From Pomacea canaliculata (lineage: Eukaryota > Mollusca > Gastropoda > Architaenioglossa > Ampullariidae): a stretch of 64,000 nt of DNA. Each line of letters opens with the position of its first letter. The first letter of the stretch is position 1. The notes beneath the pieces were generated by a model. It saw only the letters and a list, made by a program, of their open reading frames with translations. It was not told the DNA's origin and ran no database searches. Below, in pieces: positions 429-63,518 of the stretch. The DNA is taken from assembly GCF_003073045.1 (NCBI RefSeq), contig NC_037590.1:43688296-43752295 (forward strand), written 5' to 3'. Made by a program: the position numbers and the translations under genes.

Positions 429-3400
429 CAGTTTATGATCCTGAAACCATTGCAACGTACGTGGACGGTAGGTTTCTCGTGCCCCAGTCCACTCACCAAC
501 GTTTGTACTTTGCGGAGAATGTCGGCCTCACCATCAGCAACCTAACGCACGAAGACTTTGGAACATACTCAGTTCGTGTTGACATCAGGAGCGGTTCATC
601 TTTTGTATCTGAGGTGATATACGCAACTCTGCATCAGCCAGGTAATAAAGCTCTTAAGCACTGTATAAGTGAACATAATCGTTACTTGTGAACATATAAG
701 CGTTGTTTGCTGTGTGTGGCGAGAACTTGATTCTTCGTAACTCTCTTTTCTTATTCCTAGATGATTATGCTGTTTTATACGCACTTTTTTCATTTTCTAA
801 ACATAGTATCAAAGAGACGTTCAATGAAGTTATCAAAAATAAAAATACTGCATTAAAACAGTGATTTAATATTAAAAATAATAATAATAATGTGACCATC
901 ACCACCAAGATAGATGGCACTCTGTGCACAGGCCAATAATGATGATAAAAGATAAAAGCCAGTAGACAGTGAGGTACGTATAGACATACTAAACAACATC
1001 AAGATGAGGTACATGATAACAGTCAGTGAGAAGTGAGGTACACACACAGACACAGTAAACAACATAAAGATGAGGTACAAGAGTACAAGGTAAAGTAATG
1101 GATGAAGGGATGTAGATACTATATACAGTGTAAGATGGAGTCGTTACATGGTGATTAACATGACAGACAGTATTGCCAGGGAGTTAATATAGTAACTCAG
1201 GGATAGCGCTTTGTGGACAGATGTGTTTTCACAGAGCCTGTGAATGTAACCTTGTAGTTTGAGTGGCGAATGTAATGTGGACGAGAGTTTACATCCAATT
1301 CTCTAAATATGACTTTGATTTTCTCCGTGATTCTAGTTCCTCCTACAACTGAAGACGAGCTGCTGCACGCGCGGATGTTGCCGAATGCCGCGTTCAGCTC
1401 AGGGGAGTGGCACGTGCAGCTCGCGTGCGGTAGATTTATCTCTGTGTTTTCTACGTTTTTCTCTGTGAATTGGAAGGTTAGTTACTATATACATGAAGTA
1501 ATTAGATACTAGTGTAATATGTTTTTATTCCTTTAGAAGTCATGAATTTAAGTCAGAAATTCTTTAATTAAACAATCTTAGAAAACGAAATAAATAAGTA
1601 ATTGTGCAGGCTTGTCAAACTCAAGAAACATTTCAGTCAAAAGAACTAATTTCAGACTAAGATGTCAAATTATCGAAGTCAAAATTTCCGGATACTGAAT
1701 AATCACAAAAATAGCAAACATGTGATTTATGTAGCTATTTCCAATGTTACTATATTCCCAATGCGCTTTACAAAACTAATAAAATATCAATACAAATTGC
1801 ACATAGTGCACATAGAAAGAAATACCTTATCAACCATAGTGAAAAGACAGAAAGGATGATCAATATAATGCCACAAGACAGTTGAAGTAACTCGGACACT
1901 CAAGAGAAGATATGAATGTCGTTATAAACTGTGAGGCAAATGACACGAGGCAGCTGTCCTGTGTAGACACTAAAGACAACAGCTGCAAATCTTTCAGGTG
2001 TGACACAGTTGATAACACAGCACGTTGATATTCATTATAGAAAGCACAAAGATGAACAGGGAACACAACAGCAGTCAACAACATTGATGGGTAGCTAAAA
2101 CACGTGTCGTCGGGTATTCACGTGCATAGATAAGAAATATAAGCAGCAGAAAATTGAGTAGGAAACTCATTCATAAATCGGAATTTTGAAAACGGCATTA
2201 GTAGCACTAATCCTAAAGAGCCGAACATTTGAATCATTGTGGAGTAGACGAAGAGATATCTCAGTTTCACGTCAGTATGATCCTTTGTTAGACTGTGAGG
2301 TTGTACACTTTGTGCTGACTGAAAAACAATCTTTAGTGTAAGTCAGAAGAGGAATTAAAGGATGTTTTTATTCCAGATCCCTAACCAGTATCTACTCTTA
2401 AATCCTAACCATTAGGTCTCTTGGCAGACTTTAATTGTTTTGTAATGATGCAACTATTTCACAGACACCTTCAGGTCGCTTACTGCCCACTGACCAAATC
2501 ACAGGCTCCGACTACATTTTGAAGTTGACCAACCCTATAGAAGAGGGAAACTACTCCTGCTTCATAGACATCCATGAGCCTGCTGCCAGGTGTGCGCATG
2601 TGCCGTCCACCATGCTGGTCAGTAACGAGATTCACGTAGACGACTGTTCTGTACAGACGGTGAAGAATAATGCAGCCAAGCATCAAATGGAGGACATTGC
2701 ATCAGCCTTCAAACAGTTGGTAATGACAGGATCAGAATCTGGTAGGTTACCTTCAAGTACTTGCTTTTGTTTACACAGTGTCACTGTATTCATGTAGTTT
2801 ACCAACTTACACAACTGGGGTTTTGATGTTTAAAGTGATTTCTTCTACCAGGCAGGTCAGTACTTGGTAAATATGTGTTTGTGTTCGCGTACATTCGTGT
2901 AAAGTTGAATGTGTGTGCGCTAATGCAACTTTGAGTGCGTGCGTGTGAGTGAGAGAAGAGACCAATATTACAATGTTACAATGCTCTAGTGTTTTGTCCA
3001 CTTTAAATTTTCTCTGTAGGAGATCGACACGTTTAATCTCATCCTTTCTCCTTGTATACACAGGTATACTAATGGATACAGCAGTGGGAAAAAGAAAGAA
3101 TTTGTTTTAGAAGTGCAACACAATTTTTTTAAATAACTATGTAATGAACAAGTTCTTATGAAGGTATATCTTATTTTTACTACTCCTGATCACCTGTTGG
3201 CTGTGAGTTCTCACTTGTGGTCTGGCTACAGAAGCTACATACCTTAGTGCAGAACGAATTGTCACCGCAACTCATTCATTTCACGGGCGATACACGTGAT
3301 CAGTGGTACTGGACATGGTGTTGTGACCTCATGCACTGCACCAGCTTATGGATTGTTGTTGTTATGAAGAACTATATTCACTGGATGTCAATATGTGTGT

Positions 3401-4600
3401 GTGTATGTACTCAGTTGCATATAGCTAGATACCTGAATAACTGTACATGTAACTCTTACCTCAAGTTACCTGTAACCGTCACTGGGCTTTGACAAAGTTG
3501 TGTTGTACAGGAAATGTCCGTCTTGTCAACGGCAACCGACCGTGGAATGGCAGAATTGAGTTGAAGTCCCCCAACGGCACCTGGGGAGCAATGTGCAGCA
3601 CTTTTGTCGGTTTGAATACTGCCCCAGTTGTCTGCAGGATGCTCGGGCTCACTCCGTGAGTGCTACTTTTTATTTTAGGATCTTACAACCTACTTGAACC
3701 TGCTACGATCCCGTTGTTCTAGTAAATCTTTCTGGGAAAATATGCAATTATTACAAGAAAATAAACAAGACGCGTTTGACCCACAGGTTACTCTAACAAA
3801 TATTTCTTTGAATGTCGAGCGTTGACTTCTACATTCCTATCATAGGACCATTACTTCTTTTTGACACTTGGAAAAGGTGTTATGATATAAGTGATAATAG
3901 TTTTTCTTAGCAGATAATATTGAATGCATTGTATTAATAAATTTAATAATCTCGTTTCCATTTTAGTACAAAATAAACAGTTTCTGGGTTAAGTGTCATA
4001 TCTTTGTTAACATTTGTGTCAATATTTTAAAAAGTAAAGCAGAGTAGCAAAGCAAAGAAGATTAATGTAGTGAAAAATATTGTGAAGTGCTTCGTAAGAA
4101 TGAACATTTGAAACATTTAAAATCTGCATACAACACCCTGACAGCTAAGGTGTGTGTCTTCAAGCGTATAATCTTCTCTCTTTATATCTTTTTCTAAGTT
4201 CGTTGGGGAAGTAAACTAGTGATCATGTATGTATCTAGAGAGGCAAGTGTTTGTACGAGCATACTGCTTCAGTTATTTTACTTGCGCGGATATGTTTGTG
4301 TGTGTGTGAGAGAGATAGAGATTAAAGAAGAGAGAGAACACGATTCTTGTGTGATAATGCGAGGGCTTTACTTCATTCTTTACGGTATCTTTGTTTACTG
4401 ACAGGGATCCAAGGTATTCACCGTACATATCTTACGCTAATCAGTATGGCATTAGCAAGTTACCGGCTCTCACTGGGTATGTCTCCTGTACCGGCAATGA
4501 AGACAGCATCTTTAACTGCTCCATCAGCTACAATGGTCAATCCTGTGATCGCTACTACGATTTGGGAGTCGACTGTTGGCCAACATTTACAACGGATTAA
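429..4600 (+). CDS. Gene 1: Ig-Ig-SRCR secreted protein, 5' part outside window
   Basis: Five of the expected seven exons are visible: 429-641 (or from 432; two AGs stand 3 nt apart), 1337-1476, 2465-2741, 3511-3655 and 4405-4600. Junction phases 1-0-1-2 all join in frame. The first visible exon is the second half of a V-type Ig-like domain ([28 protein letters not shown]). Exons at 1337 and 2465 make a second Ig-like domain (HVQLACG to EEGNYSC) followed by a helical linker. The last two exons form an SRCR domain ([43 protein letters not shown]) and stop almost at once, so there is no membrane anchor. Its SRCR second half is the most diverged of the family: it lacks the usual PILLD block. Its SRCR intron uses a normal GT donor where genes 2-4 use GC. 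The signal-peptide exon and first Ig exon should lie left of the window. Confidence 0.82.
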
Positions 4601-4696: not shown

Positions 4697-5340
4697 GGTC
4701 TGAAGCATCTCCCCACCGCAATCACATCAGCAAGTCCAACACACGACAGTTTAAGATGTTTATACACTAAGATATCTCTGTCAGAGATTCAAATAAGAAA
4801 AAAGGGCAATTTCATGTGCTTTTATTTCTTCGTCCTCTTTCCATAACATAATTCGTAAGTCACGGGATTCGTAGAATGTATAGTCATCTGAGGTGGCGTG
4901 TGTGTGTGTGTGTGTGCGTGTGTGTGTTGGTTGTAGTTCTATTAAAAGTATACCCAAGATAGCATTGAAACATTTTACAACCGTTTCCAAAACGCTAGCA
5001 TGACTCTAATAACGTGAAGGTTGTAGACGAAATATTTTCGAGTCATTTTTACTTTTAACTGAAACATTTTAGAATTATTTTGAAATGGATTGTAGGATGG
5101 AGCTGTGTGGGATGGGTTGGAGGGAAAGGCAGGGAGAGCTTGCTTGCATCAAACACCATTCAAGTGTCTATCAGCATTTTTCGTTTGTTTATTTTATTGT
5201 TTGAAAGCAACCGCGGGAACATCGGGTTGTTTCCTTTGCTGACGCTCGGACAACATCAGAACCGTTTCAAAACCGAAATGTATATAGATCCATGCTTTCT
5301 TAGTGAAAATATAGATGTAGAAATACGGTAAAATGTTGAA
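4697..5340 (+). repeat. Segmental duplication, copy 1 (3' flank of gene 1)
   Basis: About 640 bp matching the 3' flank of gene 3 (18560-18896 plus 22519-22805), where a Kolobok element interrupts the match. Shared landmarks include the CAGCAAGTCCAACACACGAC block, a (GT)n tract and the end at AAATGTTGAA. It shows that a unit including the gene end was copied inside the cluster. Minus-strand open frames here are not supported as genes. Confidence 0.85.
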
Positions 5341-6019: not shown

Positions 6020-6076
6020 TAGTTTTAATAAAATTTTGGAGGCGAAGTACACGTGTTTGTTCTGAAGAAGATAACC

Positions 6077-7841
6077 ATGGATAGATTTGTGATACGAAAA
6101 GGAACTGATTGCGGTGGTTTTTTGAAAAGAAAAAGGGAAGAAACGAGCGATGTGCAAGTTTTGGGTGCTGGAGCCGATGAAAAACCAGAAAGGCCTGCTA
6201 CGAAAGTAAGAAAGTATGACAATGAATACTTGAAAATTGGTTTTACAAACATTATTGTTGATGGTAAAGAACGGCCACAGTGTGTTCGCCTCGCAATATT
6301 AGCTCCAGATAGTATGAAGATAAACAAACTACGGCGCAATTTGCATTTGGAAACTCGACATGCGGAGTTAGCTTGCAAACCTCTCGAATTTTTTGAACGA
6401 AAATTTGCAAGAATACAAAAGAGACAAAAAAAACCAAAACATTTGTCTCACATACATCAATTCCTAAGAAAGCTTTGATGGCTTCGTATCAAGTTTCCTA
6501 TCGCATTGCTCAAAACAAAAAAGCACATACGATCGGAGAGTCATTAATACTGCCTGCAGCAATGGACATTGTAGGGACCATGACAGGAGAAGATGCTGCT
6601 ACGCAACTGCAAGCCATTCCTTTGTCAAATGACATGGTTCGCGGAGAATAACTGAGATATCTGAAGACGTGTCTGATCAGTTGATCAGTCGTATAAAAAG
6701 CCAAAATTTTGCTTTGCAGTTAGATGAAGCTACTGACACTGCAGGTGACTCACATTTGATTGCTGACATTTGTTACCTGTGGGAAAATAATCTTCTGGAA
6801 GACTTTTTATTTTGCAAGAAAATTGAACGCAGAGCAACAGCCCAAGGTTGCTCCAGACGTAGTTTGGACTCACTGCCTGATCCACCGTGAAGTTCTAGCT
6901 TCCAAAGATTTGAGTGTTGAGTTGAACACAGTGCTAACAGATGTCATCAAAAGGGTGAACTTTATAAAGAACAGTTCTGCCAGATCTCGCCTGTTTTCTC
7001 TGATATGTCAAGACATGGGAGCCGACTATGACGCCTTGCTCTAGTACTGCGAATCAAGGTGGTTGTCGCGTGGAAAAGCTTTGAAGTCTTTGAATTGCGG
7101 GAAGAATTGTGGGTGTTTCTGAAGGAGAACTCTTTCAACAAGGCTGACCTGCTTAAGAACGACCGATGGCTGCTGCTAATGGCATATTTATCGGACATAT
7201 TTGAGAAGCTGAACGTTGTGAATACTTCTATGCAAGGGAAGGACACCACCATATTACAAACAACTGACAAGATGAATGCTTTCGTCCGAAAAATTTCGTT
7301 GTGGACGCAAACGATACGCCAGGAAAATATTTTTGATATGTTTCCGTGCTTGTGTAAGTTCAAGGCTGACGTTAACTTGAATCTTGATCAGGTGAAGAAT
7401 GTAATTATTGCCCATCTAAACGGACTGCAAGAAAGGTTTCAGCATTACTTCGCTGAAATTGATGTGACTAAATAAGATTGGATTCATAATACATTTCTGG
7501 CTGATCCTAGCACAAGCGGGTTGTCCACGCAAGAAGAGCAACTCATCGACCTTTCGAGTGACCAATCCCTGAAAATGGTCTTCCAAACAACACAAGTGCC
7601 AACATTCTGGATTAGCGTCTACAGTGAATATCCTCTCCTTTCTGAGAAAGCAATAAAAGTTCTTCTGCCATTTTCAACTTCGTATATGTGTGAGCAAGGA
7701 TTTTCAGCATTGGCAGCACTGAAGTCGAAATACAGAAATCGTGTGGACGCAGAGGCTGAGTTGCGAATAGCAGTGGGTACGAACATCGCACACAGGTTCG
7801 CTTCTCTATGCAACAGCAAGCAGGCTCAACCTTCTCGTTAA
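6077..7841 (+). pseudogene. Broken hAT transposase (ZBED5/SCAND3-like)
   Basis: Pieces of one transposase run in order but not in one frame. 6077-6478 has the N-terminal part (KVRKYDNEYLKIGFT, then a His/Cys region resembling the BED-type end). 6478-6660 reads like the family segment IAQNKKAHTIGESLILPAA. 6669-7475 carries the LDEATDTAGDSHL catalytic-core motif and the FLFCKKIE block. 7521-7841 has the C-terminal hAT dimerisation region (FWISVYSEYPLLSEKA, CEQGFSALAALKSKYRNR). At least three frame breaks or stops separate the pieces, so it cannot make the enzyme. The family is known from domesticated vertebrate genes, but nothing here suggests domestication. Confidence 0.78.
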
Positions 7842-9344: not shown

Positions 9345-12300
9345 ATGGAATTAGCTTTTGGAATCTTCATTTGTGTAATATCCATAACAGGTATTCCTCC
9401 ACCTGTCAATTTGTCAATATTATTGTTTGATGTTACGTTTTTGATAATTTGTGGTTTTTTTCTGAAAATCCTGTTTCTCTGCTAATGTCTCATGTTGTGA
9501 CTATTCTAACTTATATTACGAGCTGCCAAAACTACTCTATGGGACAGCTATGTCTTATAATTTAACACAGTTTAATACAAAAACCTGGACATATATATAT
9601 TGCTGTAATGTATGACGAAGCGGTCCAGACCTACAACTGGACAAGCACTTCGCCAGAGCTCGGCGCCACGTACTACGCATGTCCGGGGGACACGGTCACC
9701 CTTCCCTGGTCTCTGGTCACCACAAGTTCTGAGACTGTCAATGATGTAGAATGGTACTTTGCAGAAGGGGGTAAGTCACTTCAGGGTAGGAGTCTTCAAA
9801 CATATCCTGCAACTTGTATAGAAACCATTTCTATAGATTAACGTATACTTAGAGTGTCAAGCTGACAAGGATGAGAAGAAGTGTTCTTTGCGGATGTCTC
9901 TTGTGTCACTGTGTATGTATATTACATGATGCAACCATGATGTACATGTGTCTATGTGTGTATGTGTACATGATGGATGTTTACCTTATGTTTGTTGCTT
10001 ACCCAGGTGGAAATAACACGCTCATTGCCAGCTACATCCAGGGTGAGCTCCTATTGTCCCACTCAGAACGACAACACTTGGCGTTCGTCCCTAATGCGGG
10101 GTTAAAGGTCAGCGACATAGCACCAGAGGACTTTGGACAATACTCAGTTCGCCTTGTCATCAACAGCAATTCATCTTTTGCCACCAAAGGAGGATACGTG
10201 TTTGTGCGTTTGCCAGGTAAGATGGCGATTTTACATGGGACCCAACCTGCTCTGTTATTACCCGAAAATTGTAATTTACCTCAGTGTTTAGTTTCTGTTC
10301 GTACTGAAACAGTTTTGTGTCTTTTCCTCTTCAGTTTTCAAGGATGTAGATGTCTATATGTATATAGACCTGGCCTGAGACACACCTGGTGTATAAATAC
10401 ATTCCTGCTGGTAAATAGTTCAGCGGCCTATGTTTTTGGTGTCTTTTTAAAATTTGAAGCCCACAACCTGAGCTTTTGTCATTTTACCATTGCTCTGACC
10501 TTGTATACAAAAGTTTAATTTTTTTTCTTAGAACCTCCTGCAGTCTCAGACCGCTTGCTACGCGCACGAATATTACCGAGCGCCGTACAAGAGTCCGGAC
10601 AGTGGCACGTGCAGCTCTCGTGCGGGCGCTTTAACTCTCGTGGTTCTCTGAAATTCTCTGTACGGTGGAAAGTAAGTTTCCTTTTTTAAATAGCATTTCA
10701 TATTTTAAAATAGTTTTTAAGTTAAATTAATTAAAGATCAGTTACTTTCTATTTCCACCACCAATTGGTGCAACTCACCTTGTGCGGTGTGGTGGCTTGT
10801 GCGCCTTGTGGATCCACAGAACTATGTCGGCGGGAGCCTTGTGCTCCTGGCAGGTGTAAACAAGCCAACAGGTCTGTCAGGGGAGAGGCCAGACTAAAGT
10901 GTTGCACCCTGGCTCTCCAGACCTCCAACAGAAGCCTGTGAAAAAGAACCAACCGATATGCCACTTGTCAAGACATGACAAAAGGAAAATGGTGCTGAAT
11001 AGAACACACCCTGCACTAACCAGCAGACAGGCAGCACTTGACTGGAACAATCAGGGAAAGAGGAGAGTTGGGAGACCAAAACAGACTTGGAAATGAACAG
11101 TAGAGAGCTAACCTTGTTTTTCACAATGATGTTCTTTATCATAATTAGCAGTTACAAAACACCAGACTAGTGCTGATAGCGTCTGTCAGACATTCTGCTA
11201 TATCGCGACTTTTAAGTGTTTCATGTTGGGTATGCTGCAAGAAAAGGGTGCATTCAGGTGCATGCATGAAATAGGATATAAAAAAATTTCGCAGTACCCT
11301 GTGTCACAATCCTGAGCTTTTATATATTTTATATACAAACCCTGTCTCATTGATCTAACAATAAGAAATGTTATTTACAGACCCCATCAGGGCAGGTCTT
11401 GAACAGTACCTATTCAGAAACTCGCGAGGACATTTTGACTTTGCCCAACCCTGTAGAAGAGGGGAACTACTCCTGCTTCCTGGATGTCCAGGACCCGACA
11501 GCCAAGTGCGCTTTCGTCAGTCCCACGATGATGACCAGCAGCAACCTTCACATCAACAGCTGCTCAGTCCAGCAGGCCTTGTTTAATCCAGTCCAGCAAG
11601 AAAAGGAGGAAATGGAGTCCGCCTTTAAGTTCCTCATCAGAGTGCGTGGTGAGTCACGAGAAAGACTGAGATTTGAACCACTTCCTGCCACGTGATGTAC
11701 TCCCACGTAGACGTAAAGCTGACGTAAGCCGCCATTGTGACAAAGACTGAAGAACCAGAGATGACTAATTGTCAAAACATTACTTAACAAGCAAATAATA
11801 GTCAAACAACAAATTTTACATGTCTCTTATTTTGCTTATCATTCTCTCGCGAGGGCTAGAGAAAACAACAATGATAGACTCTGATTACATGCACGCGCAC
11901 ACTCACTCACTTTCCCACACAATGTGCATACACTAATTCTCGTACTTATAGACAAACCTTATTTATTAATGTAAATAATCACATTTTGTAGGAAACTGCA
12001 TTAAAGAAGGAATTTTCTGTAACTATAGACACAGTCCGTCTTGTCAATGGCAACCGACCGTGGAAAGGACGAGTGGAAGTCAAGTACAACAGGACCTGGG
12101 GAGCAGTTTGTGACACAGATTTCTCTGCCTTGTCTGCTGCTGTCGTCTGCGGGATGTTAGGGCTCAGCGGGCAAGTGCTGCCATTGGCCATTGGTCAAAG
12201 GGTTTTCTGAAACTTCATTCGCAGCGTAGAGTAGTGTGGCAATGCAGATTGTAGTGACTTGCTACTTGATACTGATATTATTTAAACAGTTAAACTGTCC

Positions 12301-13085
12301 ATGGATAGAATGGGTTTCAAAGTGTGGACACTAATTTGTCTGCTTTTTCACAGGTTAATAGATGGGTTGAATTTTATGCTTCTAAGCTTGAATAAGATGA
12401 TCTGGGAAACTCGTGCGCACCAAACTGCGCACCATGCTTGACCTGGACATTGCGTGATGTTTCCAACATGAACATTGACATCTGAAGGGCCATGAACTTT
12501 GTGGTTGCATCATGGACTGCAATTAGGATGTCAATTTTCGAAACTATTTTGCCAAGGGTTGTTTGAATGTTCACCCAGGTGTGTCGGACGTCGTGCATGA
12601 CGGGGATGATACTGATGATGTGAGTCTGAATGATGAAGTTCTGCGAGATGATTGGGACAATAACCTCTGATGCAGCTGAATTCGACTTCGACGATCTCGT
12701 TACTTGGGACGAGAAACTTGCGGTGTACTTTCTATTGACGAAACATGCAAGGAAGCTGAGGATGTGTAAAAGGAGTTGTATATATATATGTTTATATTCG
12801 AGGTGAACATACGTGCATACATGCATGCGAGCGAGCGATTGTATGATTGACACCAAACACCTATCATAATAAAACGTTTTTGTTGTTGTTGACAGAGACA
12901 CACCTGCAGTGCACAACCAATCATTGTACGGTGGGGGCCCGCTGCCAGTTCTGCTGGACACTGTTGTATGTACCGGCAATGAGACCAACATCTTGGACTG
13001 CTCCCACAGTCCCGTGGGTGTCAGCCACTGTGATGGCGGGGGACAAGTCGGAGTTGACTGTTTGCCAAACATTTCGTCGAATTAA
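9345..13085 (+). CDS. Gene 2: complete Ig-Ig-SRCR secreted protein, 381 aa
   Basis: Seven exons join in frame: 9345-9390, 9621-9770, 10007-10216, 10532-10671, 11381-11648, 12029-12170, 12896-13085 (1146 nt). Exon 1 is a signal peptide ([15 protein letters not shown]). Exons 2-3 form a V-type Ig-like domain ([30 protein letters not shown]); the usual F-strand Cys is replaced by Val. Exons 4-5 form a second Ig-like domain (WHVQLSCG to EEGNYSC) and a Glu/Lys/Gln-rich helix ([14 protein letters not shown]). Exons 6-7 form a six-cysteine, two-exon SRCR domain, group A ([43 protein letters not shown]). Potential N-glycosylation sites include NWT and NRT. The SRCR intron has a GC donor (AGCGG, GCAAGT). 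No membrane segment follows, so it is secreted. No clear TATA box was found. The role in recognition of foreign or self ligands is inference. Confidence 0.88.
10750..11100 (+). mobile_element. Non-LTR retrotransposon remnant in intron 4 of gene 2
   Basis: The right part translates as [16 protein letters not shown] then [13 protein letters not shown], a common sequence near the 3' end of LINE open reading frames. The left part (GTCGGCGGGAGCCTTGTGC) looks like untranslated repeat sequence common in invertebrate LINEs. It is short, degenerate and non-coding. Confidence 0.5.
12374..12780 (-). other. Unassigned open stretch antisense within intron 6 of gene 2
   Basis: A minus-strand frame is open for 232 codons (13072 to 12374). 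The part inside the intron reads like ordinary protein ([32 protein letters not shown]), with a heptad-like hydrophobic spacing. The upstream third is merely the antisense of the SRCR exon. I see no family match, no promoter and no secure splice sites. It may be an exon of an unknown gene, a transposon piece or chance. Confidence 0.25.
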
Positions 13086-13889: not shown

Positions 13890-15391
13890 ATGGAATGCGC
13901 CTTTGCGATCTTCATTGTTTTCGTATCTGTGGCAGGTATTTTATTCTTTTACATGTTAATCTACGTGTATGAGCGAGTTTGCATATTGCTTGCTTACTTT
14001 TGCATTTTTTATGGCGTTTACCTTTCTCTTCTTATTATCTCATTCCACCAAGATGGCAACGACTCTTCAGTTGTTAGAAGTGCCAAAGACAAGAACCCAA
14101 ATGAGTAGCTGTCCTACAAAGCGATTCTCGTGAAAATCTGATGATCATGACTGATTATGTCAATGAAAGACATTCTTTTTTGTCAAACGGGATAAAAACT
14201 TGGAAATCTCTGAGTGTCAAAGTCTGGAACAGGAAGAGACTTGTAGGAGTAAACACAGGTCAAGGTTCCAGTAAGTTTCATATCTAATTGTATGATTGTA
14301 TGTACAGTGATGGACAGCCGATGCGCAAACAGCTTCACCAGAAGCATCCACCCCTATATTAGACTAGGGTCTATGTATACCCACCTTAAACACGTCAACA
14401 CACATCCCTGATAATATAAAAATCTCATTACAAGCGTTTTGCAGAAGCCCTGACATATCCATCATCTCTATAAAGTAGAATTTTTTGGTCATCCCTTCTG
14501 AAACAAGTAAAACTCGTTCCCATAAGCGACTTCCTCTCCCCATACACAACTAACAGCTACATGTATAGTGAAGGAATGGTCAAGCCATATTAACGATAAC
14601 AATTGTTCTACTGTACTATTTGTGGATTTCGCTAAATCTTTCGTGAGCGATCATGATCTGATTATCAGAAAATTACAACAATACACACCAGTGACCAGAT
14701 TCCCCAGCTTCTCAAATCTCTTTTCTGTAATAATAGATAATAGAAAGTCGGTCTTTGCCGAAGGAAGACCTCTAAATGTGCTTTGTTGTAACAGGTCTAG
14801 GTGATGTAAATTTAGTTACCTTGTTTGTGTTCAGACTGTGTTCATAGAATGGGTCAAGACATTGCACCACCATGACCCTGACCCTGACCCTGACTCTGAC
14901 CGTCATCCGTCTTGATTCTCAATTACAGACATTTAAACTATCTACTGACTACTACTACCTTCATGTCAAAGTTAGAAAATTCACTGAATCCACAAGAAAC
15001 TGGCACATTGTTTTAATTACTTCAGACAAATAATCATGTAGTTTGAGTTTACAATGGTAATCTAGTTATTTTCTGTGGTAAAGAGGCCTACACCTGGACA
15101 AGCAGGTCTCCCACCAACAATACTGTTTACTACTCATGTGTGGGCGACGCGGTGACACTGTCCTGGTCATTCACACTGACAAGTGTAGAGAGTGTCAGTG
15201 ACATAGAATGGTACTTTACAGGGACAGGTAAGTAGATGTCATGTCAGCCTGTGTGTCAGGTAGAACTGAGAAACCTAGCTTTGTACTCGGTCAGCATCGC
15301 CACTGCGCCTCACACCTCAATCTCGCTTTTGCTGTTTCAAATGTTTTCATCCATTGCTTGCGTGTGTAGTGGAGAAAAGCAAGTGCTGCTA

Positions 15392-15427: not shown

Positions 15428-17946
15428 ACAAATTGAAATGCAGCGCTTTCATCAAAAGATCAACAACAACAACAACAGAAACAAATGAAAGACTTTTACA
15501 ATGTTTAATGAGTGTAATTCATTCTCCAATATGTATGGTATATAAACTAGAGAGGACTTATAAAGAACACATTATTTGTTAGAAAGTTTCTTTACAAACT
15601 GAGACACACAGGATTCGTTTCGCGGCTTTCGCGCTATTTTTCTGATGTGCATATACATTAATTACACATTAATTTTCTGTTTTGTTCAAATACTGACACA
15701 AGAGTTTAAATGTATGTATTCGCAGGAGGAAACACTACACTCATTGCAAGTTATATACAAGGTGAGCTGCTACTGTCTCACTCAGCGCCACAACCTTTGA
15801 CCTTCGTGTCCAATGCCGGGTTAAGGGTCAGCAACATCAGACCAGACGACTTCGGCCAGTACTCGGTTCGTGTTGTCATCAACAGAAATTCATCTTTTGC
15901 CACCGAAACAGGATATGTTTATGTGCGTGCGCCAGGTAAAGACAAACAATCACACACCGTGGCTTGTTTATTATGAAAGCTTTACATATTCATGTTTAGT
16001 GGTTAGATACTCGACCCCTTGACCTCCTTCATCTCACTACTTCTCTCGATCAAGCCGCATCTCAAAGAGTGATTGACTCTGCCTTATCTTTAGTGATAAC
16101 CTTTCAACTTTGACGAATTTTACTTTTGGATATGTTTTAAGTGAAATTATTTATTGTCCTTTGATTCAGTTTGCTATGATTGTAGATCCCCCGACTGTAG
16201 CAGATCGGATGTTGCACGTGAGGATGCTGCCCAGCGCTGTGCGACGAGAGTCTGGAGACTGGCACGTGCAGCTCGCGTGTGGCAATGTGACCTCACGGGG
16301 GTCCCTCAACGTTTCTGTGAAGTGGAGGGTGAGCTAGGTTATTAGTTTTTATTTAAAATAATGATGGCCTTCTGTACTAAATCGTCGTTTTTAATACAAA
16401 GATAACAATTATGTAATCCGTAACATCACTCAAAAAAAGAGCGAGAAAACCAAAACCATAAACAAAGTATTTTTTACTCATTAAAACTTGTTGAGCGAAA
16501 GAAACTTTTTTACTCAAACTTATTTCTTTTCTACCACAAAGACAAGTACTATTATGTTCAGTTAAACATGTCAGGCACACTGCCTCTGACTCTAAGTCAT
16601 TGCAACAGAGAAATGTGTACTTGTCTTACTGTCTGAGCTTCAATAAATGGTTTGCTTTAATTATGATATCAAGCTGGATATTCAAAATAAGTGAACTTTA
16701 CACCATTTAATGGCCAAGCTTCCTGTCATAGGCAGTGTAACAGTGTAACAGTAACACAACTCATTGACAGACACCCTCAGGTCTCACCCTTGGCAGCAGC
16801 TTCACAGAAAATGGCGAAGAGATTTTAAATGTCAGCCCTGCAGAAGAGGGCAACTATTCCTGCTTCCTGGACATTGATGACTCCACAGCCAGGTGTGTGG
16901 ACATCAGTCCCGCCATGCTGGTCAGTAACGAAGTGCACGTTGACACCTGTTCTGTCAAACCACCTTTGAGCAACTTAGTCCAGCGAGAAAAGCGGGAAAT
17001 GGAATCCGTCTTCCAGTATCTTGCGAGACAGCATGGTGAGTTGAGATACAGATTCTCACCCATTCCTAACCACCTCGGACATATTTCTGGGTCATAAGCC
17101 TACAGGGTGGCTTACAAGACCCACTACAAGGCTACACTACAATAATAAATCAGAAATAACACCAATTTGACAAAACATCACTGAAACACACAAAGGGAGC
17201 TAAAACACTTTTTACAGGTTCGTAATTTGTTTGGATAAAGTACATTTAAGTCAAGAATTCTTTCTTGGTTATTTTCAAGAAAGGTAAAATGTGGAAGACC
17301 TTATGTCTGCTGCATGGTCATCTAGAAATGAGAAACTGACTTATTTTACTGCTGGCTAGATGAGCGATGCAAACCTCTATCATCGCCTTCCATTGTTAAT
17401 GTTATGTCGATACCACCTCAGGCCATTGCTCTCCTTCAAATGACAACTGGCTTCATTAACTATGTGTCAAGATACTTATATTCTTTATTAATTAAAGGAA
17501 CAGATAACAATATTTGGAAAGAAGAAACTAACAAACACAACGACACAGGCACAAATATGAACACGTACTGTCACATATTTATTATTATTTATTACATATT
17601 TATTATCATGTATGCAAAGCAAACAAACAAACTTTGTTGTAGAATACAATGACCAAACATTATATTTTCTTGTAGACACAATTCGCTTAGTCAACGGCAG
17701 CAGACCTTGGAACGGACGAGTTGAAGTGAAGTACAACGGCAGCTGGGCGGTGGTGTGTGACGACCTCTTCTCCGTCTGGTCAGCCACTGTCGTCTGCACG
17801 ATGCTAGGGGTCACAGGGCAAGTGATTGTCTCTTACACTATCATCGACCTCGCGACGACTTCCTCTGCCTGCGCGGTGTAATGTAGTGCGGACTGTAATA
17901 TGTGTATACAAGAAAGTGGTATGTGTGTGTGTGCGCGCGCGCATTC

Positions 17947-17985: not shown

Positions 17986-18275
17986 GTGTGTGTGTGTGTG
18001 TGTGTGTGTCCGCTTAAATGCGGGACTTCATGGTCACTTGATTTCATGAAAATCTTTAACATGTCGCCCTCCTTCTCGTTGCCAGAGGTACACCCGAGGT
18101 GCGCAGCGATTCCTTCTACGGTGAGGGCGAGTTGCCGATCCTGTTGGACGATGTGATGTGCCGGGGCAATGAAAGCAGCATCTTTGACTGCTCCCACAGG
18201 CCGCTGGGTGTACACAATTGTCATCGCAGTGAAATTGTTGGAGTCGACTGTTTGTCACAACTTACATCGAGTTAA
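13890..18275 (+). CDS. Gene 3: complete Ig-Ig-SRCR secreted protein, 379 aa
   Basis: Seven exons join in frame: 13890-13935, 15084-15227, 15726-15935, 16186-16328, 16771-17035, 17676-17817, 18086-18275 (1140 nt). Signal peptide MECAFAIFIVFVSVA. Ig1 has VYYSCVGDAVTLSW, IEWYF and DDFGQYSVR, again without the second Ig cysteine. Ig2 spans WHVQLACG to EEGNYSC, with two more Cys (ARC, DTC), then the linker VQREKREMESVFQYL. The SRCR domain reads IRLVNGSRPWNG, WAVVC, VVCTML, PILLDDVMC, IFDCSH, VGVDC and ends LTSS. The SRCR intron has a GC donor (ACAGG, GCAAGT) and contains a (GT)n tract. Exons 2 and 3 of genes 2 and 3 match best with each other. The start codon context and 5' leader (CAACACAA, TTTCTCATGG) resemble those of gene 2. 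Intron 1 holds a LINE fragment. Confidence 0.88.
14561..14810 (+). mobile_element. LINE reverse-transcriptase fragment in intron 1 of gene 3
   Basis: Translation gives TVLFVDFAKSF, then DHDLIIRKLQQY and DNRKSVFAEGRPLNVL, the palm region of a non-LTR reverse transcriptase around its first aspartate. It is short, stopped and surrounded by intron. Confidence 0.6.
15393..15427. repeat. (CAA)n microsatellite
   Basis: About eleven CAA/ACA units in intron 2 of gene 3; a second short run follows near 15460. Confidence 0.9.
17948..18010. repeat. (GT)n microsatellite in the SRCR intron of gene 3
   Basis: Near-perfect GT dinucleotides, about 75 bp upstream of the last exon's acceptor. Confidence 0.9.
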
Positions 18276-18559: not shown

Positions 18560-18896
18560 GGTCTGCAGCATCTCCCCACAACCATCACATCAGCAAGTCC
18601 AACACACGACAGTTTAAATCTTAAATTAAGGTGTTTATGCACCGACATTTCTCTGTCAGAGATTAAAATAAGCAAAAGGGCAATTTCATGTGCTTTTATT
18701 TCTTCGTCCTCTATCCATAACATATTCGTAAGTCACGTGATTTGTAGAACGTATAGTCATCTGAGGTGGCGTGTGTGTGTGTGTGTTGTAGTTCTATTAA
18801 AAGTATACCCAAGATAGTACTGAAACATTTTACAACCGTTTCCAAAACGCTAGCACGACTGTAATAACGTGAAGGTTGTAGACGAAATATTTTCGA
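18560..18896 (+). repeat. Segmental duplication, copy 2, left part
   Basis: Matches 4697-5034 in the 3' flank of gene 1, up to GAAATATTTTCGA, where a Kolobok element begins. The match resumes at 22519. Confidence 0.85.
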
Positions 18897-48443: not shown

Positions 48444-50152
48444 CTGGTGGTCGCAGAGACCCATCGTGTCTCCGTGTGAAGAGTTCCATTGTGGACTGTG
48501 TCCAGTCCATAGTCATCCTGCGACACGAGGTCAAGTCCAAGTCCTGCGCTGGAGACAAACTTGAGATATTGTCTGGTCGGTGAAGACACGATGAACTGGC
48601 GGTCGATGTAGGTTCCGATAATTTCGCTGTTTCTCCCTGAAATATTCACATTCAGACATAGGCACTAACCCTCGATACACAAACATATGTACATATGTAA
48701 GCTAGAAATAATGCATATAAACGAAGACACATGCACACACAAATAAGAGTTACAGTGAATTGGAGTTTAAATACACATTTTGTCTCATTCAGTGTGGTGT
48801 GTGAATGACAAAGGACATGTCCTGTAATATTCTGAATTGTGGGGGAGATTCTTGACTGCCCGGGTCTTGAAACAAATCGGCTTAAAAATACTTTTAAAAC
48901 ATTACTGTCAATAATAAAATTTCACAAACTTGAACAGCAAGACTAGCTTTTTGTGAGTTATTGCATATTTTCAATTGTCTTACAGTGTATCTTAATTCTA
49001 GTAGCCACATTCATCACAGACAAAAATATGGGCGAAAGAAACTCATTTTAGATGAGAACTCATTGTATAAAGGCTATGCACATTTTTTGTCTGTCTGCAT
49101 TTAATTCCAGAAAGTTCTCCCCACTCCAAAGAAAAAGTTTTAGATAATTCATTGCCATGATCTTTCTTATTTGAAAGCAAATTGCAGTAAGTCTGATATA
49201 ATCTTTACTGATTTTATTATAAGATTTTTTACAATCTTCAGAGTTTTTATAAGGGAAAGTTACCACTATTGGCCGAAAACCATCAAGTTCGAGTAGGAGC
49301 AGACTTTTTTGAGAGGTAGAAAAATGTTAGAAAACTTCTAGAGAGTTGGATTATGACCAGAATCAAGACAAAGCTGAACAGGATGTTTCTAAACACACCC
49401 ACCCACCCAAACACCACAGCCGTGCACAACATGACCACCTCCCATCTCGACCCCATGTCTTACTAACCCTGACCTGTCAGACAGACCCCGGAGATGACTT
49501 GTTGTTATCACAAACAGTCGTCTGTCTATATTTCCTGACCTTGACAAAAATATGTTTCTCAAACTGACGTATTCCAACATTAGGCAAGTCACCGGTTAAT
49601 AAGATACAGTCTCTGGTCTTTGTACTCGCTTTTCGTCTTCTTATCTCTTTTATTACATCCGCATCGACATCGTCTGCATACAAACAATAATGTGGTGTCA
49701 CCGGCACCGGGTGGGCGTAGTTCACGATACAAATAGTCCCTGATGCCTGATGGATGTAAACATCCTACAGTAAGTACGCTTCGACTCTCAAGCCGGACGT
49801 TTTCTCTGAATTCAATGTAAGTCACTGTTTTCAAAACAAAATTAAACAGTCCCTCCAATGCTTGTACTAATTGCAATCAGCATTGTGCTTAAAATTCCTC
49901 GTCAAAAAATTTCAAATGGTTCTAATCAAAATTAAAGCTGGGGAAACTGTAAGACATTTCAGAAAAGCATCGGACAAGTGTGAGGATATGTCATAATGTA
50001 CCTGATTTTTTTCAAAGTACTATTGCAGACTATAGATCCCTTCATCATTTTCTAATGAATAGTCCCAAGAAAAGGTCGCCGTGTCGCCCACGCATGCGTA
50101 GAACGTCGCCCCGTCGGGTAACTGGAGGTTGACCAACGGTACGCGGTGCACG
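48444..50152 (-). pseudogene. Ig-SRCR family pseudogene, two Ig exons left
   Basis: Exon 50152-50002 matches the first Ig exon (GATFYACVGDTATFSW), but its start is in another frame from the body, and a TAG stands where the conserved WYF tryptophan codon should be (SLQ, stop, YF). Exon 48636-48444 matches the second half of the Ig domain (EIIGTYIDRQFIVSS, LKFVSSAGLGLDL, DDYG) and loses frame near its end, where the out-of-frame reading LRPPG resembles the family's LRQPG. Splice sites are still recognisable. No signal-peptide exon, second Ig or SRCR exons were found nearby. It is transcribed opposite to the intact genes. Confidence 0.75.
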
Positions 50153-52553: not shown

Positions 52554-55500
52554 ATGACATTTGCCTTTAAGATTCTCATAATCGTCGGCTTTTTGTCAGG
52601 TATTGATTTATTAAAGGGGAGTGTGTGTGTGCTGAGTAAATTGTTTTATGCTCAACTATCTGATGTGTCTTCTGACACTTTTTTTTATCCTTCCTTATCT
52701 CCTCCTCTATTTTTTAATCTTTTGTTCATTTTTTGACTTCTTCCAAAATATTAAAAACGATTTTATTAGTTGAATGTATAAAATAGCAGAATTGTACATC
52801 AATGGTCACATTCATATTGACATTAGTAAGATCTTGATAATTATTTTCTGAATCTTAAGCTTGATATCATGCTGCAAATAATTAAACGCTAATTCACGAA
52901 GATGATGAATATAGGAATAGAAATGTCCTCTGAAATGTTGTAATGTACAGTTGGTAAGCTTGTTGTTCATTGTGACAGCGTGTTCCGGGTACACCTGGTT
53001 GAGTGGAGCATACAATGGCTCTGTTTACTATGCTTGTGTGGGCGACTCAATCACCTTTCCCTGGGCTGTCATCCCCTCTGGTACTGAGAGGGTGACCGAT
53101 ATGGAATGGTACTTTAGAGACAATGGTAAGACCGAACTTTGTGGATTAAAGTTCTGTAGATGGAGTGCTATTGTTTCAATGTTATATATCTATGTTTTTG
53201 TCTACTTTGCTTAAATAGTTTCATACATTACATAAAATTTATGTACAAATACATGTCTCTATATACGTTCTACTTACTTGGCTGCATTTGGTTGGTATGT
53301 TTTTACGAAGACGGCAATTCTGAAACCATTGCAACGTACGTGGACGGTGAGTTTTCTGTGCCCCACTCTTCACACCAACGGTTGTTCTTCGCGGAAGATG
53401 TCGGCCTGACCATCAGCAACTTAACTCAGGAAGATTTCGGGGAATACTTTGTTCGTGCAGACATCAGGAGTGGTTCATCGTTTGAAACTCAGGCTCTATA
53501 CACATTTCTGCGTCAACCAGGTAATAATGCAATTCTGTTTAATAATATACAGTTAAATAATCTACAGCTTTTTTCCTGTAAAACAGAAGTCTATATTTTA
53601 TTATGCTTGAGTATTTCATCATAAACTTTGGTCTTTCATTTAACAATTTTAGGGGTTAAGCGACATACATCATGGAGATTTTTAGTAATTAAAAAAGTCG
53701 CTTAATATAGCAATCGGACTGCATACACTAGACAGAAGTTGATGAGTTAAAATGTGTTGATATCCGTTTACATCCAGTTCTGTAAGCTGGCCTTGATTGT
53801 TCCCATGATTGTAGATCCTCCCAGAACCGACGACAACCTGCTGCACGCGCGGATGTTGCCGGGCGCCGTGTACAGGTCTGGAGACTGGCACGTGCAACTC
53901 GCATGCGGTAGATTTTCATCTTGGGGTTCTTCGTCTTTTTCTGTCAAATGGAAGGTTAGTTACCGTATGCATATGACTCGTGTAATTTTGTGTTTAGTAT
54001 TCCTACAGAAGTTATAAATTTATGCATTAGAATTCATTTAAAAAAATGAATACTTAAACGGAAATAAAAAACACACTTCTTTTATAAACTTCTTAAACTC
54101 AAGACATGCTTCATTCATTAAAAAGGAAACTAATTATATAATTAAAGTTATTAATCAAGGTGACAGAACCCGGATAGTGAATGATTACATCAACATCATT
54201 TATGTAGCTATTTTTCCATTTTCCATGAGAGAGCTTTAAAAAACAGGCAGAAAAATAGCGATACAAATGGCTCATAGTAAACATACAGACAGAAATAGTA
54301 TCAACCCTAGTTACAAGACAATAAAATAAAAACACAATGTTAGAAAGGCGTGCCATGATCGGTATCAATGTGGTCTGTTGATAACTCTCACCACACGTGC
54401 TGCAGCCGTCGGTGTTTGTTTATGTTTACACTGCAATTGCCACGTGGTTTTCTGCTTTACCCTGAAATGCTTCCTCCATGAAGTCTCTCAAAAATCAGGT
54501 TTGAACTCACTTTACTGTCTCGTCTTCCATTGTCAGACCTTACTACAAAAGCAGCGGAAATAGTAAATAATCAAAGATATGACAAAGAGAGAACTGCAAT
54601 AGAAAGCAGGTAACTCCGAAAAGCAAAATATTTGATATTTGAGGAAGAGTCAGATGGATATCACAGTGAAGTTACCGACTAAAAGTAGCAATATCATACT
54701 TTTGTTAGAGGTTGTCAACGTTATATGTTGTCACAAAAATACAAATAGAAACATTCATGTAAGTAAAGAGAGGATTTCAGGATGTCTTCTCCTGCACACC
54801 CTTAACCAGTTTAATCTTAGGTTCCGTTATAGACTCTAAGTAGTCTTGTAATATGTAACTATTTTACAGACCCCTTCAGGTCGCTTATTGAACAGCGACA
54901 CTTCATTAAACAGCAATTCCATTTTGATGTTGACCAACCCGATCGAAGAAGGAAGCTACTCCTGCTTCATAGACATCCATGAGCCTGCTGCCAGGTGTGC
55001 GTATGTCCCACCCAACATGCTGGTCAGTAATGAGGTCCACGTGGATACTTGTTCTATAAATCAGGTGCTGTACACCATAGTCAAACAAGCCAATAAGGAC
55101 ATCATATCATCGTTACAACAGGTTTTTGTCCTCGGAAATGGTGAGATTATTTCAAACATCGGTTTGTCGAACATAATTTCGTAATTTTAATGTCTCAAAT
55201 GAACTATCAAGTTTTATATAAAGTAGGTCTCAGTATTAAGAACTCAAACCAATTCTGGCGAATGTGTACGTACCTGTGTGCATGTCCCACGCATGCTCTA
55301 AGTTTTGTTCCAAATATAAAAACTGTTTTCCCTCAGCCTCAGAAAGATCGGGTGCACCAGTATGAGAACAAAAACAATACACTGTATATAAAAATGTCCC
55401 ATATCTAAGCATTCACTCAGCTACAAGTGTGTTGTATTACCCATAATGCCATAAAAATCGTATTTGCAAACTCATAAAAAAAATAAAGCAAAAACAAAAT

Positions 55501-56637
55501 ACACAATCAAACACTGTCTCATAGTGACACACTTACAAACTTAATCAGGAACTATCCAACCTGTACAGCGGTCCGGTGGCGCAACGGTTAGCGCTGTTAG
55601 CGCCTGTCACCAATACAGTGAAGGTTAGCTGCCCTGAGTTCATTTCTCGTCTCGGGCACGCTGATCTTTCTCTGCACGTGGCATCTGTTTACAGGGCTGG
55701 CTGCTTGCCGTAATATAGCCTTAGTTGCTGACACGGCGTAAAACACCAATCCCCCCCCCATCCCACCTGTAATCTTTTACTGTTACCTGTTTTTCCATTC
55801 AAATGTCACAATGCGGGTCTCAGGGACACACACAGAGGACAAATTACAATTGAGATATCTTTTACAGAGGGTTAACATGGATCAAATCTGTTGTTATCAC
55901 ACACAAACGCTCGCTCTAGCAGTATACTAAAATATTGAAGAACGGAAAGAAAGTCTGCCTTAGAAATGCTATAGAAAAGTTTTGTATAAAATAGATACAG
56001 TGCGCCTAGTCAACGGAAACAAACCATGGAATGGAAGACTTGAAGTGAAGTACAACGACACCTGGGGAACAGTTTGCGATGATAGCTTTGGCGTGTCGTC
56101 TGCTATTGTCCTCTGCAAAATGTTTGGACTGAGAGGGCAAGTAGTGGTATCTTGTAATTAATGTTACTTATTCCTTGACAACAGAGTTTGCTTAAAAAAG
56201 GTTAATGACATGATTAGACTGCATGTATGTGTTAACTGTTTTGACATGGCCACCACCTGCCATCCAAAGGTTTAACTCCCTCTCTGTCTTTAGATCATGT
56301 CCAAAAGTATTGCTTGCAATGAGGAATCACGGAGATAATATCTGGGTTATTGTAGCATTAGCATATTAATATAAATCCTAGTTTCCATGTGACTCTATTT
56401 GTGAAGATGGCTAACATTGGTTACAGAACTCTCGCTTTCTTTGTCAATAGAAACACCCCAGAGGTGCATGGTAACGCATTCTACGGCCAAGGCACGTTGC
56501 CGATCCTTCTGGACGAAGTTGCATGTTCTGGCAGTGAGACCAACATCTTTGACTGTCGCCACAACGTCGTTGGTCAACACGACTGCAGCCACAGCGAAGA
56601 TGTCGGGGTCGACTGTTTGCCAGCCCTATCCGTGTAG
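52554..56637 (+). CDS. Gene 4: complete Ig-Ig-SRCR secreted protein, 380 aa
   Basis: Seven exons join in frame: 52554-52599, 52979-53125, 53311-53520, 53815-53954, 54870-55140, 55995-56136, 56451-56637 (1143 nt). Signal peptide [16 protein letters not shown]. Ig1: [29 protein letters not shown] (no second Cys). Ig2: WHVQLACG to EEGSYSC, then ARC, DTC and a helical stretch ([20 protein letters not shown]). The SRCR domain is the most canonical in the window: [59 protein letters not shown]. Six Cys split over two exons fit group A. The SRCR intron has a GC donor (AGAGG, GCAAGT). It is secreted, since it ends LPALSV after the last Cys. Closest relatives are genes 5 and 1. A SINE sits in intron 5. 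No canonical poly(A) signal was found just downstream. Confidence 0.9.
55568..55752 (+). mobile_element. tRNA-derived SINE with LINE-like 3' tail
   Basis: Starts GCGGTCCGGTGGCGCAACGG with an A-box-like TGGCGCAACGG (55577-55587) and a degenerate B-box (GAGTTCATTTC, 55636-55646). Its last 45 bp (TTGCCGTAATATAGCC to GGCGTAAAACACCAA) closely match the 3' end of the LINE at 58744-58788. It lies in intron 5 of gene 4. Confidence 0.75.
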
Positions 56638-57312: not shown

Positions 57313-58812
57313 GCTGGGGTTGACGGGTTCAACCTTTCAGGCTGACGATACACTTCTCTTTGTCTTTGCTTCTCTTAGGTAATTCTGGTGAGCCTCCACT
57401 TTCTCTCCGTCGTCTGAAACTCATGCTCTCCTATGTCTGTCGTTTAAAATTTCATCCTGGAAACCCTGCGTATCGTGCTGTCTTCAGACCTCAGCGTGCT
57501 GCCCTGTATGCCATTCGTACCAAGGAGCAAAAGCCTCTATCACTTCGAGTAGCACCTCACCTACATGCTGCTGGAGTAGATATTAATCAGGTAGAACCTT
57601 TATCTCTGCAAAAAAAAACTCCTCCTTGGACCCTTCCTATTCCAGAGATCCGTTTTGATCTTACAGCCTTTAAAAAAGGGAAACACTAGTGACCTCATCT
57701 ACCTCCAACACTTTTATGAACTTATTTCCGATTATCCTGAATTCTGCTCAGTTTTTACAGATGGCTCCAAATTCCCAAGCGGGGGTCCAGTCGCTGTGGC
57801 AGCAGTTCCGTCCTGCCAACCACAACGGGCTGCTTCAGTCCGACTCGCAGACGAATTTTCTATTTTCACAGCGGAACTTCATGCCATCTTGCTTGCCTTG
57901 CAGCATGTTCACTGCTCTTTGGAACACAACTTTTTGATTATTTCAGACTCTCTTTCTGCACTTCCAGCCCTCATTTCTAATGATTCTGACCACCCCCTTG
58001 TGGTCCAGATTCATAAAATTCATGCAGCACTCTTTCAGCAAAATAAGGACATTGTTTTTATTTGGGCTCCTGGCCATGCTGGTATCCCAGGCAATGTTCG
58101 GGCAGACCAGGCTGCCAAGGCTGCATGTCAGTCCCCTGGTAAACTTCCATCACTTATTTGATCAGACTGCAAATGTTGATTTTCGGCCTACACTGAGTCC
58201 TTATGGCAGCGCCACTGGGCCACTCTGGGCCAAAACAAGTTATATACCACCCTTCCCTGCCTTTCCGACCGCCTACCTTCTTGCCGCTCTACGAGACGGG
58301 AGGAGGTAGTTCTTACAAGATTAAGGACAGGACACACCTATACCACGCAAGGACACCTCTTACGAGGTGAACCGCCACCTGTTTGTCCCTGGTGTAGGGA
58401 AAATTTTACTGTTATACACTTCTTGATTATCTCTCCGAAGCTTCAGACTATTCGTTGTCATTTTTTTACAGAAAAATCTTTATTTTCCTTATTTAGGTCC
58501 GTCCCATCGGCGGCAATCTTTTCCTTTTTAAAGAGGATAGGGCTCTGCCATCAAATTAAAAAAATTTATATCCTGTTTTGTTTTTGGTGTGATAGTAACC
58601 TTTTTGGGCTTCAACGCCCCTTTGAATGGTTTCCCACCCTTTTTTACATTCTGGTTACTTATTATGTTGGCCTTTAAAAATATATCATGTTTAAAAGAAT
58701 TAGGAAGTTTTTATTCCAAAACCTTTAAAGTTACAACTACTTTTTGCCGTGATATAGCCATAGTTGGTAGCACGGCATAAAACACAAACAAACAAACAAA
58801 CAAACAAACAAA
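57313..58812 (+). mobile_element. 5'-truncated LINE with RNase H domain (I/Nimb-like)
   Basis: A short FQADDTLLFV piece (the reverse-transcriptase ADD motif, about 57333) is followed, after an apparent internal loss, by LSLRRLKLMLSYVCRLKFHP. An RNase H domain then runs 57700-58160 with its acidic residues in place (VFTDGSK, TAELHA, ISDSLSAL, WAPGHAGIPGNVRAD). The Cys motif region CPWCRENFTV follows. Stops and at least two frame changes break it. The 3' end is TTGCCGTGATATAGCC to GGCATAAAACAC with a (CAAA)n tail to about 58812. RNase H in a LINE fits the I group of clades; the exact clade is not certain. Confidence 0.8.
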
Positions 58813-61709: not shown

Positions 61710-63518
61710 ATGATGGTATCCGCTTTTATGATTCTCGTTGTTGGCTTTTTACCAGGTATTGTTTATTAATGGGACTGTCTGTGTGTGTGTGGGTTTTCTG
61801 AGTAAATATTTTCATGCTAAGCCATCTGAAGTGTCTCCTACCACTTCTGCTTGGATCCTTTTTATCTCTTCCTCTTTTTTTAATCTTTTTTTCCTTTTTC
61901 GACTTCTTGGCTTGAAAGTAATTATTCCATTATTATTTTCTTTCCATTCACTCACTAATATTTACATATTCTTCAGTCTCAGGTTAATTTAAATTTCTCC
62001 TTCACAATGTTCTTCGTGAAAAATTGTAGAATTTTCTCGAAACATCGAAAAATTATTTCATAAGTTGAAGATATGAAATAGCAGACTTTTGTACTAGTGG
62101 TCACATGTCTATGGACATTAATAAGATCTTGATAATTATTTTTGAAATGTTACATTTGATGCTGTACTGTAAATAATTAATGCTAATTAAGAAAGATGCT
62201 GAATATGGGATTAGAAATTCCTTTATAATGTAGTCATTAAAGTCGGTAAGGTGTGTTTTGTGACAGTTTGTTACGGGTACACGTGGCTGAGTGGAGCACC
62301 CTCCAACGGCTCTACCTACTATTCGTGTGTGGGCGACTCAGTCACCTTTCCCTGGGCCATCATCCCCTCTGCTTCTGAAAGAGCTGAGCTGGAGTGGTCT
62401 TTTAAAGACAATGGTAAGACCTGACTTTGTGAAGGTAAGTCTGTATATGGAGTGAAAATGTTAAGTCGACGTTCATTGGGTCACAACTGGCTGACCATGC
62501 ACGTGCGCTATGCTACGTCTGACTGTCCGCGTGCGCTCGTGTATGTGAGTGTAGGATAAAGTGTGTGTGGTTTACTGTGTAAATGGGACATAATGTGGAA
62601 GACGATGTTTAACCCACATCCTTCGTATTGACCATCGTTAATACAAGAGATAATCTACGTAAGATACATCTACATCCTAGTTAGCAAAGCATATTTTACC
62701 TGTCCTACACAGTCTTCTGCTTCTCTGGTAGATAAAACAAGAAATTGTTTCTGGGTTATATGTCAATTTTGGTTTTTTTTTTTTTTTTTTTTTTGTAATT
62801 TTCTGAAGTAGTTTTATACAGTACACGAAGGTTGTGTACACATGCATGTCTATATATATATATGTTGTACATGTTTTGATTTGCTTTGTATGTTTACGAA
62901 GATGGCAGTTCAGAAGTTATTGCAACATACCTCAACAATGAGTTTCTCGTGCCCCACTCTTCACGGAGAACTTTGAAATTCGTTGGAAATGTTGGCCTTA
63001 TGATCAGCAACTTAAAGCACGAAGATTTCGGCGAATACTCAGTTCGCCTTATCATTAACGGCGTTATTATTGAGACGAGATACGCTTACCTGAGACAACC
63101 AGGTAATAAAATAACCATGTAGATAATACATGTAAAATATAAAGTACCTTTTATATGCTGAAGTATTTCTTGTAAATGTTCTTTCTTACACTTTATTGAT
63201 CAAGCGGCATGCACGATGCATATTTTTAATATTTGTTTTATTTAACAAAGCTTCACAACATCCTTTTAGGATAGCAAGCAGACTGCAAACACTACACAGA
63301 AGTCGGTGAGTTCAAATGTGTTTCAATCAGTTTACATCCAATTCTGTAAGTTTGTGTTGATTGTTCCCATGGTTCTAGATCCTCCGAGGACGGACGACGA
63401 CCGGCTGCTGGCGCGGGTGTTGCCCAACGCCATCTTCAGCGCCGGCGAGTGGCAGGTGCAGCTCGCGTGCGGTTCGTTTTCCTCCTGGGGCTCCTCATCT
63501 TTTTCTGTGAAATGGAAG
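61710..63518 (+). CDS. Gene 5: Ig-Ig-SRCR family member, 3' part outside window
   Basis: Four exons visible: 61710-61755, 62267-62413, 62902-63102, 63379-63518, with the same phases as gene 4. Two ATGs stand in tandem at the start (MMVSAFMILVVGFLP signal peptide). Ig1: TYYSCVGDSVTFPW, LEWSF in place of WYF, KHEDFGEYSVR; the second Cys is missing as in all members. The start of Ig2 reads WQVQLACG and FSVKWK. Exon 3 is 9 nt shorter than the 210 nt of genes 2-4 (three codons missing near the end). The second Ig half, linker and SRCR exons must lie to the right of the window. All visible splice sites are intact. Confidence 0.82.

Follow-up and report, generated by a model that had tools for sequence, protein, structure and literature searches.

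A 64,000-nt stretch of contig NC_037590.1 of the apple snail Pomacea canaliculata (hereafter the window) carries five plus-strand genes, g1 to g5, built to one plan: a signal peptide, two immunoglobulin (Ig) domains, a linker and a single group-A SRCR domain. On balance, we favor reading this locus as tandemly arrayed genes for secreted recognition proteins whose modules are exchangeable: a V-set-like first Ig domain, a second Ig domain, a predicted helical linker and a group-A SRCR domain. The gene models were assembled by hand from the window DNA, and their exons, together with an inverted pseudogene, are given below; the basis is the splice model except where another is stated, and P-numbers denote database proteins.

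429..641, plus: g1 exon 3, Ig1 second half (contained in P0009)
1337..1476, plus: g1 exon 4, Ig2 first half
2465..2741, plus: g1 exon 5, Ig2 second half and linker
3511..3655, plus: g1 exon 6, SRCR first half, GT donor
4405..4600, plus: g1 exon 7, SRCR second half, stop, divergent SRCR subtype (splice model, trees, window identities)
9345..9390, plus: g2 exon 1, signal peptide (scan; g2 identical to P0006)
9621..9770, plus: g2 exon 2, Ig1 first half
10007..10216, plus: g2 exon 3, Ig1 second half
10532..10671, plus: g2 exon 4, Ig2 first half
11381..11648, plus: g2 exon 5, Ig2 second half and linker
12029..12170, plus: g2 exon 6, SRCR first half, GC donor
12896..13085, plus: g2 exon 7, SRCR second half, stop
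13890..13935, plus: g3 exon 1, predicted signal peptide (scan only)
15084..15227, plus: g3 exon 2, Ig1 first half
15726..15935, plus: g3 exon 3, Ig1 second half
16186..16328, plus: g3 exon 4, Ig2 first half (P0003 agrees)
16771..17035, plus: g3 exon 5, Ig2 second half and linker
17676..17817, plus: g3 exon 6, SRCR first half, GC donor
18086..18275, plus: g3 exon 7, SRCR second half, stop
48455..48640, minus: inverted pseudogene, Ig1 second half (tblastn, hmmsearch)
50008..50115, minus: inverted pseudogene, Ig1 first half, internal stop (tblastn, hmmsearch)
52554..52599, plus: g4 exon 1, signal peptide (P0001 agrees)
52979..53125, plus: g4 exon 2, Ig1 first half
53311..53520, plus: g4 exon 3, Ig1 second half
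53815..53954, plus: g4 exon 4, Ig2 first half
54870..55140, plus: g4 exon 5, Ig2 second half and linker
55995..56136, plus: g4 exon 6, SRCR first half, GC donor
56451..56637, plus: g4 exon 7, SRCR second half, stop
61710..61755, plus: g5 exon 1, signal peptide (contained in P0121)
62267..62413, plus: g5 exon 2, Ig1 first half
62902..63102, plus: g5 exon 3, Ig1 second half
63379..63518, plus: g5 exon 4, Ig2 first half (window ends downstream)

Exon 1 encodes the signal peptide, exons 2 and 3 Ig1, exons 4 and 5 Ig2 and the linker, and exons 6 and 7 the SRCR domain and stop codon. All seven are present in g2, g3, and g4, each of which starts with a 46-nt signal-peptide-like exon; introns 1 to 6 have phases 1, 1, 1, 0, 1, and 2 in all three, and the translations run to 381, 379, and 380 amino acids, respectively, with no internal stops. 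The other two genes are cut by the window edges: g1 has exons 3 to 7 inside and exons 1 and 2 beyond the left edge, while exons 1 to 4 of g5 precede the right edge and any remainder lies outside. The initial annotation, which described a seven-exon layout shared by five genes across 429..63518, is borne out by these models, in which both ends of that span are exon edges. Database proteins corroborate exon 1 of g2 (P0006) and of g4 (P0001); that of g3 (13890-13935) is a prediction whose sole basis is an exon scan of the window DNA. The intron that splits the SRCR domain has a GC donor in g2 (12170), g3 (17817), and g4 (56136) and a GT donor in g1. The ratio of nonsynonymous to synonymous divergence (dN/dS, NG86) is 0.23-0.55 in all ten gene pairs, with partial coverage in those involving g1 or g5. 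These are genes with joined exons and under coding constraint. Relics had also been reported, in the plural; the search recovered one, the inverted pseudogene lying between the genes on the minus strand (48455-48640 and 50008-50115), which retains Ig1 only and carries an internal stop.

Public gene models agree with this picture to varying degrees. P0006 (LOC112569623) and g2 are identical at every residue. P0009 contains g1, and P0121, a protein that terminates six residues inside the following intron, contains g5. Residues 1-300 of g4 are those of P0001, yet P0001 and P0002 each lack a segment of that gene, and P0003 (C0Q70_02145) fuses g2 and g3. Such faults lend some color to the alternative that the architecture is an artifact, with unrelated neighboring genes fused by reader or annotation. 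This is very improbable, however: one exon plan with its phases recurs in five genes, P0006 matches g2, and P0011, from another source (labeled 'lgn'), is uninterrupted. This last protein, a relative (43% identity over 97%), runs for 378 uninterrupted residues on a contig of 1,576 nt that encodes its Ig and SRCR parts in a single frame; the Ig and SRCR exons are therefore joined, contrary to the possibility, raised earlier as a refutation, that they might be separate. P0011 appears to be a spliced transcript from another snail. P0122 and P0124 have stretches in common with it and then continue into other sequence, as would be expected of intron-containing genomic pieces. The source names of family proteins (neurotrypsin-like, DMBT1-like, antigen WC1.1-like) mirror the SRCR domain alone. 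In the comparisons below, P0001 and P0002 (g4) and P0003 (g2 and g3) were left out as faulty models, and P0006 and P0009 were represented by g2 and g1. P0022, whose SRCR first half is unalignable, was omitted from the SRCR tree and cation-site table; P0047, a partial near-copy of g3, from the trees; and g5, which shows no SRCR domain inside the window, from all SRCR work.

By sequence, the C-terminal domain of g1 to g4 is a member of the group-A SRCR superfamily. Pfam SRCR (PF00530) matches all four genes that show this part (E 1.6e-16 to 4.7e-26), and each domain has six cysteines coded on two exons, the two features that define group A. The V-set profile matches Ig1 in g2 to g5, all four with the whole domain, at E 1.2e-4 to 1.4e-6, with the curated cut-off passed by g3 and g4 only; at E up to 0.1 it matches eight of eight family rows. 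For Ig2 the one match is weak (Ig_3 in g2, E 0.006). The structure model of P0006 has strands for both Ig domains, with residues 30-241 matching two-Ig proteins, followed by a helix at 242-269 as linker, along which the predicted local distance difference test score (pLDDT) drops from 66 to 38. Two Ig-fold domains are present, the first V-set-like, with weak profile support for the second taken by itself. Together, the splice models and profile matches uphold the architecture proposed in the initial annotation, from signal-peptide exons to group-A SRCR. Secretion is predicted, because a signal-peptide-like exon is present and no sequence follows the SRCR domain.

This architecture is already known in the apple snail. 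It had been suggested that no SRCR version of the snail Ig-lectins had been described, but a 2022 review reports, in the passages available, a P. canaliculata lectin combining two immunoglobulin domains with SRCR, possibly exclusive to Caenogastropoda (PMC9178244, citing Gorbushin 2019). The likeness, drawn through the citing review only, is one of species and domains. No description of the array, or of the g1/g4 mosaic and cation-site loss set out below, was found in the literature searched, although Gorbushin 2019 may hold them.

The layout also resembles that of the snail FREP, CREP, GREP, and QREP (VIgL) proteins, as initially proposed. Both have one or more N-terminal Ig domains, an interceding region, and a single C-terminal recognition domain, but the cluster described here ends in SRCR rather than fibrinogen, C-type lectin, galectin, or C1q. 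The resemblance stands as architecture; homology of the Ig half to FREP, CREP, or GREP Ig domains was not demonstrated. An eight-row profile of the Ig-Ig-linker region, searched against approximately 5.8 billion proteins, returned 14 matches up to E 10, ten from P. canaliculata and four labeled 'lgn', all from this family and none a FREP, CREP, or QREP; candidates must have exact 5-residue words in common with the profile, so that distant VIgL kinship could be missed. When the Ig half of P0006 served as the sole query of a region search, the matches were P0006 itself and the fused P0003 alone, too narrow a result for inference. Among the matches listed, Foldseek and VIA rows were vertebrate and amphioxus Ig proteins (nectin, JAML, antibodies) and indicate no particular family; as the VIA listing covers residues 24-243 only, the lack of a FREP-like entry there carries no meaning.

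That the cluster is a true SRCR branch of the VIgL proteins, its Ig front descended from the FREP/CREP/QREP Ig ancestor and joined to SRCR in the caenogastropod line, has a little under an even chance. The order of parts matches, from signal peptide through Ig domains and interceding region to C-terminal recognition domain, and swaps behind an Ig front do occur, given the Ig-C1q QREPs in Littorina (PMC8878817) and the CREPs reported in both Heterobranchia and Caenogastropoda (PMC9178244). The empty, if word-limited, profile search speaks against such an origin, as does the restriction of bona fide FREPs, GREPs, and CREPs to Heterobranchia in the excerpted text of PMC8878817; the range of FREPs and CREPs outside that group is disputed, with PMC9178244, PMC12074976, and PMC11423352 on the other side. 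An independent combination of Ig and SRCR, convergent with the VIgL proteins, is also a serious possibility, though short of probable. It agrees with a profile search without sequence link to VIgL Ig domains and with structural matches to no particular family, but it sits less easily with a domain order so close to the VIgL plan, and distant kin could escape a sequence search.

Within the array, the Ig and SRCR halves of g1 and g4 have different histories. The Ig-half tree places g1 and g4 together (95/92), inside a clade with P0004 and g5 (99/100), whereas the SRCR tree joins g1 to P0004 (99/99) and leaves g4 among the remaining members. Constraining g1 with P0004 on the Ig half was rejected (p 3e-6), as was g1 with g4 on the SRCR half (p 0.004). 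Synonymous divergence (dS, NG86) between g1 and g4 is 0.52 in Ig1 and 0.44 in Ig2 but 1.36 in SRCR; their DNA similarity spans part of intron 4 and stops within exon 5, and g1 shares 72-74% identity with P0004 and 40-41% with g4 over the final two 40-column windows. We conclude from these comparisons that the SRCR module was replaced in either g1 or g4. The likelier recipient appears to be g4, because g1 and P0004 have the divergent SRCR type in common, an argument that leans also on a public gene model (P0004). Separately, the 3' flanks of g1 (4697-5041) and g3 (18560-18896) are 85% identical over ~350 nt, above the level of the two genes' matched exon stretches, which may reflect either recent conversion or a shared repeat.

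The SRCR domains also differ at positions predicted to bind cations. In SALSA SRCR8, cation site 2 comprises D1019, D1020, and E1086 and site 3 comprises D1020, D1058, D1059, and N1081, and either D1019A or D1020A abolishes binding (PMC7043408). The family SRCR is related in sequence to those of SALSA/DMBT1 (DMBT1 matches at E 2e-26 to 1e-25), MARCO, and CD163, and both g3 and g4 keep the cation-site residues; unlike those proteins, the snail proteins place one SRCR domain behind two Ig domains, and most members depart from the site. Acidic or amide residues (D/E/N/Q) occupy all six positions (1019, 1020, 1058, 1059, 1081, 1086) in three of eight members (g3, with which P0047 was counted, g4, and P0007). 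All six are lost in g1 and P0004 and four in g2, while P0011 and P0083 have single losses, at 1086 and 1019, respectively.

Under the favored reading, the proteins would be secreted into haemolymph or mucus, where subunits may assemble through the linker and spare cysteines. In g3-, g4-, and P0007-type members, the SRCR domain could bind polyanionic surfaces, whether microbial or self, using calcium at the conserved acidic site, and members with several site residues lost (g1, g2, P0004) would bind in another way or serve as partners. New pairings might then arise from tandem duplication combined with SRCR module exchange. A defense role is plausible. More tentatively, and with appreciably less confidence, the array may be combinatorial, with recombination among the tandem genes swapping two SRCR classes behind Ig fronts, one with the cation site intact and one divergent and without it; if true, one locus would yield calcium-dependent binders plus members with another binding mode or a partner role.

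Several points weigh against the recognition-array reading. The cation site is incomplete in five of eight members (at several positions in three, at one in two), which weakens the case for a single SRCR-binding mechanism. The cation positions were mapped via motif and spacing (C-D-D, L-D-D-V, N-C-x3-E), with SALSA itself unaligned, and the retention of all six in 232 of 257 pattern-matched domains (101 of 109 proteins) among other retrieved proteins is a rate biased upward, the set having been retrieved by similarity to the site-bearing g4. The mosaic was noticed first, and its tests were framed afterwards on the same data; the database protein search listed 120 of its 180 matches. The structure model is middling (mean pLDDT 60.9, ten sequences), with helix and SRCR weaker. 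Finally, the reading is built from sequence. A non-immune role for these putatively secreted proteins, such as a reproductive, mucus, or egg-capsule function, seems unlikely. An SRCR-domain protein is reported from the Littorina oviduct (PMC8614816), and no mention of six public identifiers of family proteins was found in the literature searched; but snail Ig-lectin proteins are treated as immune molecules in the excerpted literature, and PMC9178244 places the apple-snail Ig-Ig-SRCR protein among immune factors.

This analysis supplies exact models of the genes behind a gastropod protein class otherwise represented, in the literature searched and as excerpted, by one review sentence, and it flags public annotations that are fused or truncated. 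It further documents an SRCR swap in one gene pair and the loss of ligand-site residues in some copies. Separate roles of the Ig and SRCR halves are now testable via paired recombinant proteins.

Other sequences are interspersed with these genes. A second secreted-looking gene family lies among them in two minus-strand copies (42400-44680 and 28450-30420), each with a signal-peptide-like exon followed by a cysteine-containing region across three exons; two hand-spliced proteins had no Pfam match up to E 1, and the one tried had no solved-structure match. Broken open reading frames at 6032-7841 resemble a DNA transposase, although the one at 6032-6475 has no Pfam match. An RNase H domain at 57595-58158 (Pfam E 1.5e-13) is probably from a retrotransposon, and a degenerate TCAC tandem repeat of ~3 kb occupies 31612-34620.
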